From assembly GCA_938083135.1 (NCBI GenBank), contig CALLKY010000033.1, forward strand, positions 1-64,000: a stretch of DNA of 64,000 nucleotides, written 5' to 3'. Of the stretch, positions 18,682-31,763 are shown piece after piece; the first letter of the stretch is position 1; each line of letters opens with the position of its first letter. The DNA is from an uncultured Alphaproteobacteria bacterium. GTDB taxonomy: Bacteria; Pseudomonadota; Alphaproteobacteria; Bin95. Position numbers and translations under genes: made by a program. Below the pieces are notes generated by a model. The model was not told the origin of the DNA and made no database searches. It saw only the letters and a list, made by a program, of their open reading frames with translations.

Positions 18682-19899
18682 TCAGCCGAGCCTGTGTTGC
18701 TGCGCCCGCGGGACAAGCTGGCCTTTCCCGACTTGGCGAAGGCGCGGGCTGGTGCTTTCTAACAGCACGGGATGCAGCGCCAGCGCCAGTGCGCCCGTCG
18801 CCGTTTCCCCCCAGAACCAGTCTGCCAGCGTTTTCGATGATGGCTTCGGACCTGGCTGCGCCGTAATCGCTTCCAGTCGCCAATTGCGCAAGTCTTCAAT
18901 CGCAAAGCGGAGAGTTGATGCCTGGTCTCTGCCTTCGGGCGGCTCTGGGTTTGATCGTGGTTCCAAAAATGCGGCGGCATAGCGGGCGGCGGCATCGATA
19001 TCGAGGCCGCTGACAGTGGCAATGCTCCGCCCGTGGGTTTCCATGAATAGCGCGTGCCAAGGTGCCAGGCTGGCCGTTTCCGCTAGCACTGCGCGCAGCA
19101 GATCACTTTCATCGGGATTGGGTGGTTTGGGGAAGTTGACGGGGCAGACGAGCGATGCGGTACTGTCGCTCTCAGGGGCGTCATCCGGAAAATCCTCCAG
19201 AATCACCGGCCCGTCGGTGCGATCCAAAAGGGCCAGCGCGGACAGTAGCACGCGCATCTGAAACGCTGGTGCGTGGGGCGCGCCGAAGGGGCGGCCCAGC
19301 TCAAACGGTACCCAGAGCGCGCGTGGCGGCCGCATCAGTTCCGTGTTTTCACGCACTAAGCTGATGCCTGCTGTCGCGATGCCTGCGGTTTCGAGAAAAT
19401 GCCCAAGCGCGCTCACGGCGCGGGTGCAGTTCGGTCAAACAGGGACGAGTAGGGCGGCGTCGACATTATCCTGGTGCAGGAGGGCTGCCATCTCCAGCGC
19501 TGTCGGCTCAATTTCATGGGGCTCCCATCCCGCACCCATGACAGAGTAGTGGAAATCCGCCATGGCACCAATTTCGCCTGCCGCTTTCATTTCGCGCAAC
19601 CGGTCAATGGGGAAGACTACGTTCACGTCATCCTGAAACCCAGACCGGTCAAAATTGACGGAGGCATGGCTCATCGCCAGGTCTGCCGCTTGGACATTTC
19701 CAGGAATGACCCGGTAGCCAATATCGGTCAGGTCAAACACCGTATCCGTTGTGCGATGTAACCCGGCTGTGGTGACGATCGCGACGCGGCGCTCTTTTAG
19801 CGGTGGTCCAGCCACGAATGGTTCACCTGGAAAACTGGGGCAATTCTTGGACAAGAGATGGGCTGCATCATCCGCTGTCATATCAGAAAGTCTGACCAT
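18682..19899 (-). CDS. GrdB/PrdB-like selenoprotein with in-frame TGA (Sec155)
   Basis: One continuous frame from the ATG at 19899 (GAGG 8 bases upstream) is interrupted only by TGA at 19435-19437, then runs on to a TGA at 18682-18684: 405 residues with selenocysteine at 155. The protein belongs to the glycine/betaine/D-proline reductase selenoprotein B family: VNFDRSGFQDDVNVVFPIDR and ADFHYSVMGAG precede DAALLVPV-U-PNC, a UxxC redox motif (Sec155, Cys158), and ETAGIATAGISLVRENTE follows. A hairpin of bacterial SECIS type starts 6-13 bases after the TGA. The two halves alone would each be broken proteins, so recoding explains the data better than a nonsense mutation. It is the last gene of an operon with the 90-residue protein and hydroxypyruvate isomerase. 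The substrate is unknown; SelA/B/C/D genes are not in the window. Confidence 0.85.
19400..19428 (-). promoter_or_regulatory. Bacterial SECIS element (selenocysteine insertion hairpin)
   Basis: Reading the minus strand after the TGA, bases 13-27 form a perfect 5-bp stem CGCGC/GCGCG with loop CGUGA, placing a loop GU at positions 19-20 after the TGA, about where the conserved loop G/U sits in the Escherichia coli fdhF SECIS. An imperfect lower stem (bases 7-12 with 31-35) extends it. This is the expected binding site for SelB within coding sequence. Confidence 0.8.
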
Positions 19900-19909
19900 T
19901 AGTTTGGCC

Positions 19910-20182
19910 TCACAGGCATTTAAAGGGGAACCATTTCAGGGAGAATTGGATGGCGTCTGTCTGGTCCTCGAACCAGAAGATTGGCGTGTCGTCGTGATCC
20001 CGCTCTGCGGTCCAACGGCCTTTTGATTGCTTGTCGGACCAGGTGAGCATGTCGTTGATGCGGCGGGATTCGGGCGGAAATCCGCGGGAGCGGGCACCGT
20101 TCAACTCATCCAGAATATGCACGCAATACCAAGTTTCGCGATCCAGTGCGGCCCGGTCTTTTTGGAAATCAACCGAAGCCAT
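19910..20182 (-). CDS. 90-residue protein of unknown function
   Basis: The protein has 90 residues, is soluble, and is rich in Trp and charged residues, with [15 protein letters not shown] near residue 15 and [19 protein letters not shown] near the end. I do not recognise a family. It overlaps the 3' end of the hydroxypyruvate isomerase gene by 14 bases and ends 10 bases before the selenoprotein start, so all three are very probably one transcript and translationally coupled. Its conservation alongside GrdB-like genes in other genomes would be informative. Confidence 0.7.
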
Positions 20183-20954
20183 ATTCGCTGCCCCAACGCG
20201 CTAGGCCTTCCAGCGTGCCTGCGGCAGGCCGATATTCGCAACCGACCCAGCCTGCATAGCCAAGATCATCGAGCATCTTGAAAAGATAAGGATGATTGAT
20301 TTCACCAATGTCTGGCTCATGGCGACCCGGCGACCCGGCGATCTGAATATGGCCGACGCCCGCTTGATGCTTCTGGAAGCGCATGGCGATATCACCTTCC
20401 ATGATCTGGACGTGATAAAAATCCATTTGGACCATCAGATTATCGGCACCTACAGCCGCCAGCACATCATGGCCATCCTGCTGATAGTTGATGAAATAGC
20501 CCGGGATATCGCGGGTGTTGATGGGCTCAATCAGGCCCGTCAGGCCGGCATCTGCAAGCTTCGGTGCAGCGAATTTCAGATTGTTGACATATGTGGCGCG
20601 GCATTGGGCCAAGTCTGCGCCCTCGCCTGGGATACCAGCCATCATATGCAGGCGCTTGCACCCAAGTGGAACGGCGTAGCTGATGGCTTTTTCCAAGGCT
20701 TCGGCAAAGTCAGCCTCGCGTCCGGGCATTGCCGCTAGGCCGCGTTCCGCCTTTTCCCAATCGCCTGGTGGCAGATTGAAGAGCGCGATCTCAACACCGG
20801 CGCTTTTTGCAGCATTTTCGACGTCTTCAATTGAGAAATCATAGGGAAATAGGAACTCAACGCCTTTGAACCCGGCGGCGGATGCTGCAGCGAAGCGGTC
20901 CAGGAATTCGTGCTCCTGAAACATCATCGAAAGATTGGCGGCGAAGCGAGGCAT
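20169..20954 (-). CDS. hyi: Hydroxypyruvate isomerase family (Hyi/OtnI)
   Basis: The protein has 261 residues, a xylose-isomerase-like TIM barrel. Family blocks include [69 protein letters not shown] and GCEYRPA, carrying the metal-binding Glu, Asp, His and Glu residues. Known members interconvert hydroxypyruvate and tartronate semialdehyde or isomerise 2-oxotetronate. It is the first gene of the operon that ends in the GrdB-like selenoprotein, an unusual partner, so its true substrate in this organism may differ. The ATG at 20954 has AAGGATT about 10 bases upstream. Confidence 0.88.
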
Positions 20955-27170: not shown

Positions 27171-28106
27171 TCAACGCTCACCATAGAAATTCATGACGGC
27201 ATGCTTCGCTTCAGCGAAGAAGAGCCAGCGTTCAGCAATCGCGCCGACCATCGCCGCCAATACGCCAATTGTCGCCAGCAGCGCAGACGGCCCAGTGATC
27301 AGCATGAGCATCGCTACAAGAGTCGGAACGCCAAAGCCAATGGCATAGACAATCATCCGCAGCTTTGCCGCATGCTTACGCGCAACTTTGAAGCCCATCT
27401 CCCGCGTGATGTAGTTCTCTGTCACGTGAGGCGCTTCTAGCTGGCGAACCTTGCCGAACCGGCCTAGGCCCGTTGCACTTTCCGGCGTTGAAAAAGGCGT
27501 CGCCGTATCAACAGACCGCCAGTACATGAGCTTCGCGATCGCCAATGCAACGGTCAGGATCAGCGCCGCACTTGCTTGCCAGGACGCGCCATAGCCGAAC
27601 CATGCAGCCAGTGCGGCCACGGCATGGGCGCCTGTCATCAAGGCGAATAGCAGATAGATCGGCGTCGTCCATCCAGTCGCCCAAGCCTGGATCGGCTTCA
27701 AGGACTGATAGATCATACCGGTGCAGTACACGGTGATAAGCGCCAAGGCGGCACCTAAAAGCGCCACAAAAGCCCAAATACCGCCAGTGGCACCAAGCAT
27801 CCACGCAAGCCATAACAGCCCAAGCGGAATGAACGTCACAACAGCGGCCACGCCTTCACGGGACAACCAGGAAGTCCGCCATTGGCTGAATGCGCGCCAT
27901 GCCCGTTCTGGATGGCCAAGATGTGCCGTTGACGAGAGTAGGCCGGCTGAAACCAGGGCCAATGCGACGCCAAGGCTTATTGCACCGAACCAGGGTGTTT
28001 CAGCAGGGATCGCGCCAAATGCCCGCGCGATGGCAAGCCAGAATGCCAGCCCGTAGCCAAGCCCAGATAGAGTCGTGAAAAAGATAACTGAAGGTGCAGG
28101 GTTCAC
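27171..28106 (-). CDS. soeC: DmsC/NrfD-like membrane anchor of the sulfite dehydrogenase
   Basis: The protein has 311 residues, a GTG start and about eight hydrophobic helices. It begins APSVIFFTTLSGLGYGLAFW and contains HLGHPERAWRAFSQWRTSWLSREG, a hallmark of DmsC-type quinone-interacting anchors. In SoeABC this subunit passes electrons from sulfite to the quinone pool and holds the two cytoplasmic subunits at the membrane. It follows soeB by 55 bases. A DMSO- or polysulfide-reductase anchor is the alternative, but the sulfur-handling neighbours favour SoeC. Confidence 0.75.
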   Translation of the reverse strand: MNPAPSVIFFTTLSGLGYGLAFWLAIARAFGAIPAETPWFGAISLGVALALVSAGLLSSTAHLGHPERAWRAFSQWRTSWLSREGVAAVVTFIPLGLLWLAWMLGATGGIWAFVALLGAALALITVYCTGMIYQSLKPIQAWATGWTTPIYLLFALMTGAHAVAALAAWFGYGASWQASAALILTVALAIAKLMYWRSVDTATPFSTPESATGLGRFGKVRQLEAPHVTENYITREMGFKVARKHAAKLRMIVYAIGFGVPTLVAMLMLITGPSALLATIGVLAAMVGAIAERWLFFAEAKHAVMNFYGER

Positions 28107-28161
28107 GGTCGGCGGCTCCAGCGGCCAGAGAAATTAGATATCAGGGCGGGCATTGTCATGA

Positions 28162-28887
28162 TCAGATTGACAGCATCCGGTCGACCCACTTCAGCAGGCC
28201 TTGCGGCTCGCCCGCTGCCTCTGCGGCGGCAGGCGCACTGGGCATCCGTTCACGCGGTGGCAGGTATTTGTTGGTCGGCTTGTAGTCAAATTCTGGTGCC
28301 AGGTCATATCCACCGCGTTCGGCAACCAGTTTGGACACATCTGAATTCGGGTCGCCCAAATCACCGAAATGCCTGGCGGACGCCGGGCACGTCGAAACGC
28401 AAGCAGGCACACGTTCGGCTTCTGGAATGGTTTCGTTGTAGATGCGGTCCACGCACAGCGTGCATTTCTTCATAACGCCAACGGTTTCATCAAACTCACG
28501 CGCGCCATAGGGGCAGGCCCAGGAGCAGAGCTTGCAGCCGATGCACTTGTCTTCGTCCACCAGCACGATGCCGTCTTCTTCGCGCTTGTAGGATGCACCT
28601 GTTGGGCAAACCGTGACGCAAGCGGGCGTCTCGCAATGGAGGCAGGAGCGCGGGAAGTGGACCGTGCGCCCATTGGCACCGTCGCCAGCCTCATAGCCGT
28701 GCACGCGGTTGAACCACACACCTTCAGGCTCTGCGCCGTACGGATCCATATCCGTCAACGGGGCCATTTCGCCGCCAGTGTTCCATTCCTTGCAATTGAC
28801 GGCACAGGCGTGGCAACCGACGCAGGTATCCAGGTCGATAACCAGCCCCAGCTTTTTCATGGGCGCGGTCGCAGGCAAACTGGTCAT
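28162..28887 (-). CDS. soeB: 4Fe-4S ferredoxin subunit of the sulfite dehydrogenase
   Basis: The protein has 241 residues with four ferredoxin-type cysteine clusters: CVGCHACAVNC (residues 22-32), CLHCETPACVTVCP, CIGCKLCSWACPYG and CTLCVDRI with ACVSTCP. That is room for four 4Fe-4S clusters, the normal wiring of DMSO-reductase-family beta subunits. There is no twin-arginine or other signal, so it is cytoplasmic, as in SoeB. Its ATG overlaps the soeA stop as ATGA, showing tight coupling. Confidence 0.8.
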   Translation of the reverse strand: MTSLPATAPMKKLGLVIDLDTCVGCHACAVNCKEWNTGGEMAPLTDMDPYGAEPEGVWFNRVHGYEAGDGANGRTVHFPRSCLHCETPACVTVCPTGASYKREEDGIVLVDEDKCIGCKLCSWACPYGAREFDETVGVMKKCTLCVDRIYNETIPEAERVPACVSTCPASARHFGDLGDPNSDVSKLVAERGGYDLAPEFDYKPTNKYLPPRERMPSAPAAAEAAGEPQGLLKWVDRMLSI

Positions 28888-31763
28888 GAGCGGGTCTCCT
28901 TGCGGCCACGGAAGGCCGCACCGAAGCCTAGGCGGCTTGGATTAGGCTTGCCGCCAGGGTTATTGGGCAGTGCAGGTATCACGGGCTCGCTCACCTGGGC
29001 TGTATCCGCGGGTGCGGGCTCAATATTGACGCGGAGGTCGTACCAAGCTGCCTGTCCTGTCACCGGATCAGCGTTTGGCCAATGGCCACCTTGGCCGTCG
29101 GGCAGCAGTTCGGAAATCAAGTGGTTCAGCAGGAAGCCCTTGGTTGCTTCTGGGGCGTCTTTGTCCAGGCCCCAAGCGCCTTTGCGCTTGCCGATCGCAT
29201 TCCAGGTCCAGACGGTGCGGGGGTTCACCCCTTCCATCGCCTTGATCTGAGCTTTGATTTTGCCGTTCGGGCTGGTGACATAAACCCAGGAATCGTCTTT
29301 TAGCCCCATCTCCTCCACCAACTCCCGCGCCATAAACAGGCGGTTGGCGGTGTGGATTTGACGAAGCCAGGCGTTCTGAGAACCCCAGGAATGATACATC
29401 GCCATTGGGCGCTGCGTGATCGCGTGCAGTGGAAACGCGTTATCCGCATCCTCCAAGCCGTTTAGCGGCGGACGCCAGCTGGCGATGGGATCGAAGTTCT
29501 TCAGCACGCGCTGACGGGCGGCGTCAGTCGGTGGTTGGATATCGCCATGCCCTTCAGCCGCCAGGCGGAATTTTTGCAGCGGCTCCGAATACAAATGCAT
29601 CACGATGGGATCAGCGTTCGGGATGAAACCCATGCTCGCAGACCATTCCAGATAGGACTTATTGGAATGCTTGAAGTAGCGCTGTTCCGGCTCAAGCTCA
29701 TGCCTCCAGAAGCAGCCGTTCTCAATATATTTGTCGAGTTGATCGGGGTTCTTTGCGCCAACCCCTCCCTTGTCGCCGTCCTCACCACGCCAGCCTGCAA
29801 GCGGGCCAACGCCTGGCGTGCGCTCGTGGTTGACCAGGTAATCCTTATAGCCACCGGGGAATTTGGCGGTGCCGTCTTCATTGGTGAAGGCGGGCAGGCC
29901 CAATCGGTGGCCAAGGTCAATGACGACTTCCTGGAATGGGCGAACGTCACGATCTGGTTCAAAGATCGGCTGGCGGATAGCGTCCGCCGGGCCGTCTGCA
30001 TCCGAAATCGGGCGGTCAAGCAAGGAGATCGCGTCCCATCGTTCCAGATAGGTGGTGTCTGGGAAGATCAGGTCCGCGTAGGCCACGGTTTCAGACCAGA
30101 ACGCGTCTGAATAAATGACGTGTTTGATCTTATACTCGCCGGTTTCTTCGTCCTTCGCCGTCAAGCCTTTAAGCGCGTTCTCAACGCTCATGGACGAATT
30201 CCAGCCCATATTGGCCATGTACATAAACAGCACGTCGATGGGGTTCGGGTCCTGCTTTGCGGCGTTTTCGATCACCATATGCATCAGCCCGTGGGCGGCG
30301 ACGGGCGCTTCCCAGCTATAGGCATGGTCGATGCGTCGTGGTGTGCCGTCTGGGTCAACCAGCAGGTCTTCTGGGCCAGCGACAAATCCAAGCGGTGGGC
30401 CAGCCATGGGCCTGCCAGGACCAATCTGATCCGCCTTACCGGCGGGCTTCGGGCCGGGCGGCACAGGTTTCGGGAACGGCGGTTTGTAGCGGAAGGACCC
30501 TGGCGCATCGATCGCGCCAAGCAGCATCTGCAGCACATGGATCAAGCGGCATGTATCAAAGCCGTTGGAATGCGCCGAGATCCCGCGCATGGCGTGGATC
30601 GCGACAGGGCGGGCGACCATGGTTTCATGGCGTTTGCCGGTCCAATCGGTCCAGGGCTGCGGGATTTCCATCGGGTCATCAAGGGCCGCCGCCGCCAGAT
30701 CATTGGCGAGATTGCGAATGGTTTCCGCAGAAACATCCGTGATCGCTGCCGCGGCTTCGGGGCTATTGGCACCGTCCAGAAAGCGCTCCGCCAGAAGCTG
30801 GAATACGGTCTTGGCTTTTCGGCCATCGGGCAATGTGCGCTCACCGATGAGGGAGAGATTGGCACCAGGTGCGCGCGCAGGTGTCGGCGCATCAGCGGCA
30901 CTGTCCCAGCCAAGCGGTGCGCCATCAGCATCTTTGATGACAAGCCCATGGTCCGCCGCGCCTGGGTTCTGGTTGATCAGCCAGGAGGCGTCCGTTGTGC
31001 GGGCCAGGAATTCCAGATCAATCCGGTCCTGGCGCAGCAATTCATGGATGAGCGCGGATACCAACGCGCCGTCTGTGCCAGGGCGAATCCCAACCCATTC
31101 ATCAGCGATGGCGGAATAGCCTGTACGGACCGGGTTCACGGAAACAACTTTGGCACCGCGCGCTTTCAGCTTGCCAAGGCCGATTTTGATTGGGTTGGAA
31201 TCGTGGTCTTCTGCAACGCCAAACATCAGCAGCATGCGCGCATGCTCCCAGTCCGGTTCGCCAAATTCCCAGAATGACCCGCCGATGGAATATATCCCCC
31301 CGGCGGCCATATTGACCGAACAGAATCCACCATGTGCGGCATGGTTCGGCGTGCCGAACTGCGTCGCCCAGAAGCCGGTTAAAGATTGTGATTGGTCGCG
31401 TCCGGTAAAGAACGCCAAGCGGCGTGGGTCTGTGTTGCGGACTTCAGAGAGCCAGGAGGTCGCCATTGTCAGCGCCTCGTCCCACTCAATTTCCTCAAAC
31501 TCGCCAGCGCCCCGCGCGCCCTTGCGGCGGAGCGGTTTGGTCAGCCGTGCTGGGGAATAATGCTGCATGATCCCAGCCGCACCCTTGCCGCAGAGCACGC
31601 CGCCGTTCACAGGATGATCTGGATTGCCGTCAATATATCGGACCCGGCCATCCTTCAGATGCACGCGAATGCCGCAGCGGCAGGCGCACATGTAGCAGGT
31701 GGTTGTCTTGATCTCATCCCCGGTCGGGCGGTTGTAGTCGATAGGCTCAAGCGGTGCGTTCAT
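28884..31763 (-). CDS. soeA: Molybdopterin oxidoreductase, probable sulfite dehydrogenase catalytic subunit
   Basis: The protein has 959 residues and belongs to the DMSO-reductase family. A 4Fe-4S motif lies at C23, C26, C30 and C58 (TTTCYMCACRCG, GGVLCGKG), and the molybdenum-site region HGGFCSVNMAAGG carries a Cys ligand, not selenocysteine. No twin-arginine signal is present, so it faces the cytoplasm like SoeA of Allochromatium and Ruegeria. AGGACTT stands just before the ATG. The set SoeA-SoeB-SoeC with a TauE/SafE permease upstream supports sulfite oxidation to sulfate. A different oxyanion or formate substrate cannot be excluded from sequence alone. Confidence 0.78.
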   Translation of the reverse strand: MNAPLEPIDYNRPTGDEIKTTTCYMCACRCGIRVHLKDGRVRYIDGNPDHPVNGGVLCGKGAAGIMQHYSPARLTKPLRRKGARGAGEFEEIEWDEALTMATSWLSEVRNTDPRRLAFFTGRDQSQSLTGFWATQFGTPNHAAHGGFCSVNMAAGGIYSIGGSFWEFGEPDWEHARMLLMFGVAEDHDSNPIKIGLGKLKARGAKVVSVNPVRTGYSAIADEWVGIRPGTDGALVSALIHELLRQDRIDLEFLARTTDASWLINQNPGAADHGLVIKDADGAPLGWDSAADAPTPARAPGANLSLIGERTLPDGRKAKTVFQLLAERFLDGANSPEAAAAITDVSAETIRNLANDLAAAALDDPMEIPQPWTDWTGKRHETMVARPVAIHAMRGISAHSNGFDTCRLIHVLQMLLGAIDAPGSFRYKPPFPKPVPPGPKPAGKADQIGPGRPMAGPPLGFVAGPEDLLVDPDGTPRRIDHAYSWEAPVAAHGLMHMVIENAAKQDPNPIDVLFMYMANMGWNSSMSVENALKGLTAKDEETGEYKIKHVIYSDAFWSETVAYADLIFPDTTYLERWDAISLLDRPISDADGPADAIRQPIFEPDRDVRPFQEVVIDLGHRLGLPAFTNEDGTAKFPGGYKDYLVNHERTPGVGPLAGWRGEDGDKGGVGAKNPDQLDKYIENGCFWRHELEPEQRYFKHSNKSYLEWSASMGFIPNADPIVMHLYSEPLQKFRLAAEGHGDIQPPTDAARQRVLKNFDPIASWRPPLNGLEDADNAFPLHAITQRPMAMYHSWGSQNAWLRQIHTANRLFMARELVEEMGLKDDSWVYVTSPNGKIKAQIKAMEGVNPRTVWTWNAIGKRKGAWGLDKDAPEATKGFLLNHLISELLPDGQGGHWPNADPVTGQAAWYDLRVNIEPAPADTAQVSEPVIPALPNNPGGKPNPSRLGFGAAFRGRKETRS

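Follow-up and report, generated by a model that had tools for sequence, protein, structure and literature searches.

Is a 405-residue reading frame that is interrupted once, by an in-frame UGA, one gene or two, and if it is one, what kind of protein does it encode? The question arises at positions 18,682 to 19,899 of a 64,000-nucleotide stretch of DNA from an uncultured alphaproteobacterium, the whole of which is called the window here. The original prediction, made from the letters of the DNA, proposed that the UGA encodes selenocysteine (Sec) in a GrdB/PrdB-like protein and is followed by a SECIS hairpin.

Selenoproteins of the broad 'PrdB' kind are already known; counts of them in marine metagenomes go back to 2005. 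With 42 genes in the Sargasso Sea (PMC1088965) and 235 sequences in the GOS data (PMC2398784), the PrdB type ranked among the commonest selenoproteins of both surveys. Recent reviews place PrdB-type selenoproteins under D-proline reductase (PMC13188914, PMC9312934). In this study, we examine how the UGA at this locus is read, how the protein relates to the known reductases of the superfamily, and what chemistry it might perform.

The reading frame and its in-frame UGA

The coordinates first proposed are correct but came without a strand; the gene is carried by the minus strand, and the plus strand has many stops across 18682-19899. The features are as follows.

18682..19899, minus strand: selenoprotein gene, 405 aa, with Sec as residue 155; start codon ATG at 19899-19897 and terminal stop TGA at 18684-18682; homologues alignable over the full length, from M1 across the UGA to the C-terminus
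19435..19437, minus strand: in-frame UGA, the predicted Sec155 codon; UGA in 29 of 29 public loci, and a Cys codon in three long-family exceptions

With the TGA read as U, the frame from 19899 to 18682 runs MVRLSDMTADDAAHLL...ALLVPV-U-PNCTRAVSALGHFLE...PRAQQHRLG and then reaches its final TGA. As had been claimed, one frame holds both halves of the protein, and the TGA at 19437-19435 is its sole interruption. The motif around Sec155, PV-U-PNC (PV-U-PNCTRAV), is of the UxxC type, with the codon of Cys158 at 19428-19426. The expectation that gene callers would split the gene was also borne out: a mechanical ORF caller yielded two ORFs, one at 19435-19899 (154 aa) and one at 18682-19416 (244 aa).

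Selenocysteine machinery and paralogues in the same genome

The window genome (4.15 Mb, 163 contigs, 99.99% complete) contains selA, selB, selD and a gene for tRNA-Sec. SelA (532 bits) is directly followed by SelB (452 bits) on contig C138, with a gene overlap of 4 bases. The tRNA-Sec, on C98, has the anticodon TCA and scores 67 bits, over the cut-off, and SelD (289 bits, C35) lies in a 761-aa frame that is long enough for the oxidoreductase fusion known from relatives. Seven matches to the molybdenum-enzyme family PF00384 were found in the genome; none has an internal stop, and no Sec formate dehydrogenase was seen among them.

Five UGA genes of the GrdB/PrdB kind are present in this genome. 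Two are long, C33 (the window gene, 405 aa) and C69; three shorter paralogues are without the C-terminal domain, namely C97 (276 aa), C106 (318 aa) and C99 (294 aa), with lengths taken from the longest frame. C106 and C99 share the motif U-PVCH. C97 (G000:C97, L109:7375-8205; L044) reads U-PLDH, with Asp instead of Cys at +3, so that no UxxC pair is usable there. The C97 gene stands directly after hydantoinase A and B genes.

Conservation of the UGA and its replacement by cysteine

A search with peptide patterns from outside the UGA retrieved 29 public loci, whose record titles name Alphaproteobacteria and Desulfobulbaceae-type bacteria, and all 29 have UGA at the same site. Within the order, the family is present in 14 of 14 genomes, with TGA in all matches that span the site. 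The long family occurs in 33 genomes of a class-wide sample of 385, in the UGA form in 30 and without the stop in three. SelA, detected by TIGR00474, was found in 29 of the 30 UGA-form genomes, in none of the three others with the long family and in 27 of the remaining 352 (UGA form against all the rest, Fisher 6e-27). Within its class, the family is thus confined almost entirely to species with selenocysteine machinery.

In the three long-family members without Sec, the site reads TGC, TGT and TGT; cysteine replaces the UGA there, in genomes that all lack selA. The tree joins these Cys members in one clade (100/100) close to the clade of the window gene; starred support places it within the Sec members. 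Because of this nested position, a change from Sec to Cys is the simplest direction.

Several individual loci deserve separate mention. One genome (G275:C98; L126, L100) has the UGA form and no detected selA although it is called 100% complete; its copy lies on a 6-kb contig, and contamination or recent selA loss are possible explanations. At L036:10001-14202 a homologue is interrupted after about 200 residues by roughly 3 kb with two ORFs, apparently a mobile element inserted into a selenoprotein gene. Tandem selenoprotein gene copies, all of one clade, occur in L011, L013 and L037 at about 8.8-11.2 kb, and in a locus of the same tandem clade (L015:9741-10450) the first copy is without its middle, Sec site included. 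Only short relatives were found in plasmid records. Those on Roseomonas and Haematobacter plasmids (L047:5863-6771, L048:5713-6639) belong to the GrdB family and are annotated 'selenoprotein B family', and the Roseomonas protein has Cys at the Sec site.

The SECIS hairpin

A short hairpin follows the UGA.

19408..19422, minus strand: SECIS hairpin, 5-bp stem CGCGC/GCGCG, loop CGUGA, with GU at 19416-19415; covariation; covariance model R1, E = 5.5e-14

The proposed geometry is present in the sequence to the letter. Counted from the UGA, CGCGC occupies +13 to +17 and GCGCG +23 to +27, enclosing the loop CGUGA, whose GU falls at +19/+20. The folding energy of this single hairpin was no better than that of shuffled sequences (z = +1.06), and all five pairs survive in about 7% of synonymous re-codings; energy was therefore dropped as proof. 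The hairpin is taken as real on the comparison of homologues, not on its own stability. Across 31 different sequences, 90.9% of the cells of a six-pair stem are paired, and double-sided stem changes were observed in 40 cells as compared with 13.8 +/- 2.5 in shuffles, although related sequences may beat shuffles without any structure. Stronger evidence comes from slid registers, none of which is more than 57% paired, and from the existence of two main stem types, CGCGC/GCGCG and CAGAC/GUCUG, which have in common the loop GU, usually within CGU, at equal distance. A hairpin with an apical-loop G just after the UGA is thus supported by stem covariation around a fixed loop, even though its single-sequence energy is not significant.

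The five UGA genes of the window genome are the top matches of covariance model R1, which was built without any sequence from this genome; E is below 1e-8 for four of them and 0.0125 for the fifth. Three further R1 matches in the genome were rejected as chance, being weak, in short frames and without the loop GU. An Rfam search returned nothing relevant.

The codon for Val162 begins with this loop GU. Every Sec member of the long family has Val here, whereas the three Cys members have Thr, Thr and Ala, so Val162 appears to be held by the RNA rather than by the protein. The simplest reading of the tree is that Sec gave way to Cys together with the absence of selA and the loss of the SECIS-loop valine.

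How the UGA is read

General recoding (e.g. UGA as Trp) or leaky suppression would look identical to Sec insertion in a protein alignment, but hardly merits consideration given that TGA is the true terminal stop of the window gene and of several homologues, that the recoded site aligns with Cys rather than Trp in genomes without selA, and that a co-varying hairpin and a tRNA-Sec with anticodon TCA are present.

Only slightly less remote is the reading of the UGA as a real stop, a sequencing error or the mark of a decaying gene, the halves being separate ORFs or a pseudogene. The two ORFs of a standard gene caller and a hairpin that, taken alone, equals shuffled sequence are what this reading would lead one to expect. 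However, dozens of species keep this UGA, a conservation that already refutes the reading, and the UGA form co-occurs with selA while Cys occupies the site where selA is missing. Between the window gene and its nearest relative, moreover, dN/dS is 0.073 upstream of the UGA and 0.066 downstream; purifying selection that is equally strong on both sides opposes two independent halves or decay.

Taken together, the sel genes, the kept UGA, the co-occurrence with selA, the SECIS covariation and the selection past the UGA lead us to regard 18682-19899 as almost certainly a single intact selenoprotein gene whose UGA is decoded as Sec. The claim that this organism decodes UGA in this way, made from the sequence alone, is upheld by selA, selB, selD and the tRNA-Sec, by the Cys replacement and by the covarying SECIS.

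Gene neighborhood and linkage to sel genes

Two genes lie upstream of the selenoprotein gene.

20169..20954, minus strand: OtnI, 2-oxo-tetronate isomerase, upstream neighbor; NF043033 367 bits, cut-off 325
19910..20182, minus strand: 90-aa ORF without known family; overlaps the end of otnI and ends 10 bases before the selenoprotein start codon

The 90-aa ORF may be part of one transcript. On the other side, an amidase adjoins the selenoprotein gene in convergent orientation. An amidase is a neighbor in 3 loci, and TauD, a lipase and an oxoprolinase were seen elsewhere. One clade has MutS-GlnD-MurJ upstream and, downstream, a class I W/Y-type tRNA synthetase and a cluster shared with the window's NifU/Nfu-type protein. 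Outside sel clusters, no constant neighbor was found across the loci compared; neighborhood was dropped as a substrate clue for lack of a constant partner.

A recurrent association was seen with the sel genes themselves. In 12 of 29 genomes, no more than 20 kb separate the long gene from selA (p about 4e-17, if the chance is roughly taken as 1% per genome). The sel-linked neighbor of the long gene is an ndh-selD fusion in seven cases; in one the gene lies directly after selD, in two beside selA and in one beside selC-selB. At three loci (L131:11872-11966, L132:11364-11458, L134:6407-6501) a tRNA-Sec gene and the longest ndh-selD frame overlap, at the 5' end of the frame; start-codon choice may explain this.

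Farther away in the window, at 27171-31763 on the minus strand, lie a 959-aa molybdopterin oxidoreductase of the thiosulfate/DMSO reductase type and a 241-aa Fe-S subunit, followed by a 311-aa ORF without an NCBIfam match. All scores in this cluster are below the named cut-offs.

Domains and relation to known reductases

Two domains can be delimited in the protein.

19219..19803, minus strand: PrdB/GrdB-like alpha/beta domain, residues 33-227; TIGR04483 PrdB 103 bits (cut-off 300), PF07355 38 bits (cut-off 22) over residues 72-152
18685..19101, minus strand: C-terminal helical domain, residues about 267-405, with W361/W363/T366 conserved; helices in the AlphaFold model, conservation

The protein belongs to the GrdB/PrdB superfamily as defined by PF07355, where it is above the Pfam cut-off (38 bits against 22). 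It fails membership in the PrdB equivalog TIGR04483 (103 against 300) and is below the cut-offs of all GrdB-type NCBIfam models, including TIGR01918. The C-terminal part beyond the PrdB-like region adds about 140-175 aa, and a Pfam search of the protein past the UGA gave no match. The description 'GrdB-like' therefore holds for residues about 33-227, which resemble GrdB/PrdB, and does not extend to the remainder, which matches nothing. We consider the selenoprotein to represent a PrdB-like subfamily of its own, which has an additional C-terminal domain and is neither GrdB nor PrdB proper.

Similarity to clostridial PrdB (TIGR04483) covers residues 33-227, at about 32-34% identity to database PrdB, and includes Sec at the same site in a U-x-x-C motif. 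The differences are a motif of U-PNC in place of the clostridial U-GTC, some 175 extra C-terminal residues and a genome without PrdA. With GrdB/GrdF/GrdH (PF07355, TIGR01918) the Sec-bearing region is common, but the match is limited to the surroundings of Sec and the window genome is without GrdE and GrdA. FarB of the Cloacibacillus monofluoroacetate operon is a GrdB-like Sec protein with a proposed attack on the C-F bond, which sets a precedent for new substrates in GrdB-like proteins; it differs in being accompanied by the GrdE-like FarE, in an anaerobic host that has glycine reductase (PMC10838667). The marine 'PrdB' selenoproteins resemble the window protein by description, being marine pfam07355 members with UxxC, and by that analogy their sets very probably include the window family. 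They are named proline reductase there, and the available parts of those papers do not describe partner loss, a C-terminal domain or sel linkage (PMC1088965, PMC2398784).

Could this nevertheless be a true selenoprotein B of D-proline or glycine reductase, serving Stickland-type fermentation? The PrdB and GrdB models do match around the Sec site, and UxxC is present. Against this stand the low PrdB score, the extra C-terminal domain and the lack of a conserved Prd/Grd neighborhood. No pyruvoyl partner of the PrdA/GrdE type (PF09338) and no GrdA (GRDA) above cut-off were found in the window genome, a draft of 163 contigs that may still hide a partner gene, while a control search of a Peptoclostridium plasmid recovered three PF09338 copies, one of them, PrdA-like, just upstream of prdB. 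We thus agree with the original prediction that Stickland fermentation is unlikely here, and rate that reading as very improbable. The protein is, with considerable confidence, not a D-proline or glycine reductase, and our confidence is marginally greater still in the combined view of Sec decoding and a partner-less redox protein of the GrdB/PrdB type.

Predicted structure and proposed mechanism

In the AlphaFold model (mean pLDDT 84.7), Sec155 belongs to an alpha/beta half, where strand 148-152 precedes it and helix 156-171 follows; the C-terminal half is helical. Cys252-Pro253 is invariant in 32 aligned proteins and lies in or adjoining a low-confidence loop (245-252) of the model; among the Cys-form relatives, two of the three keep CP and the third keeps the Cys alone. 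Cys252 may be a further redox cysteine. Searches of solved structures, by sequence and by fold, and of viral structures returned no usable match to the selenoprotein.

Our best guess is that the selenoprotein is a partner-independent Sec/Cys reductase. As far as sequence comparison can tell, SelB and tRNA-Sec insert Sec at the UGA (19437-19435), guided by the short hairpin at +13 to +27. Homology and the model suggest, tentatively and somewhat short of an even chance, a stand-alone reductase of the GrdB/PrdB superfamily. The selenolate of Sec155, made reactive by its place between a beta strand and a helix start, would attack a small substrate; Cys158 would resolve the intermediate, leaving a selenenylsulfide that a cellular thiol system could re-reduce. 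The C-terminal helical domain may provide substrate binding or an electron partner. No pyruvoyl subunit or pyruvoyl activation would be involved, and a protein that works without one is not expected to have D-proline or glycine as substrate. We infer this chemistry, with Sec155 as nucleophile, Cys158 as resolving thiol and re-reduction by thiols, from homology and the model. The U-PLDH paralogue in the same genome has no second Cys, so the UxxC mechanism cannot cover the whole superfamily.

The alternative that fares best accepts the selenoprotein but makes it, instead of a metabolite reductase, a redox protein of the thiol-disulfide or peroxide-handling sort. UxxC is common to thioredoxin-like selenoproteins, and marine selenoprotein lists put this kind among thiol oxidoreductases (PMC2398784). 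The sequence, however, is of the GrdB/PrdB kind, the model has no match to a thioredoxin-like fold, and the bonds attacked by known members of that kind are carbon-nitrogen or, in a proposal for FarB, carbon-fluorine (PMC10298544, PMC10838667). We regard this alternative as unlikely, though a good deal less so than the other readings weighed above, and keep a partner-independent reductase as the preferred one.

Discussion

The two-domain architecture, the missing partners, the sel linkage and the replacement of Sec by Cys look new against the available portions of the literature on PrdB-type selenoproteins. There we found no description of a partner-less two-domain family, of its five-fold presence in one alphaproteobacterium, of sel linkage or of Sec-to-Cys replacement, any of which could still be reported elsewhere. 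The 'proline reductase' label on such marine genes is probably functionally wrong, given that the partner subunit is missing.

For protein evolution, the Cys clade, nested in Sec forms and with the loop valine lost, provides a clean natural experiment on how a SECIS element shapes the protein that it serves. For the class, formate dehydrogenase was the sole selenoprotein that a survey of 2006 recorded in Alphaproteobacteria (PMC1794560), whereas in the present genome none of the seven PF00384 matches is a Sec form and five UGA genes belong to the GrdB/PrdB kind, and the link between the selenoprotein gene and selA is class-wide. With a little less than even confidence, we propose that these proteins are a separate, pyruvoyl-free family of partner-independent Sec reductases, in which a PrdB-like Sec domain is joined to a new C-terminal domain, and that this family, whose gene often clusters with the selenocysteine machinery, would go far to explain why that machinery is retained by many alphaproteobacteria, often ones that do not live as strict anaerobes.
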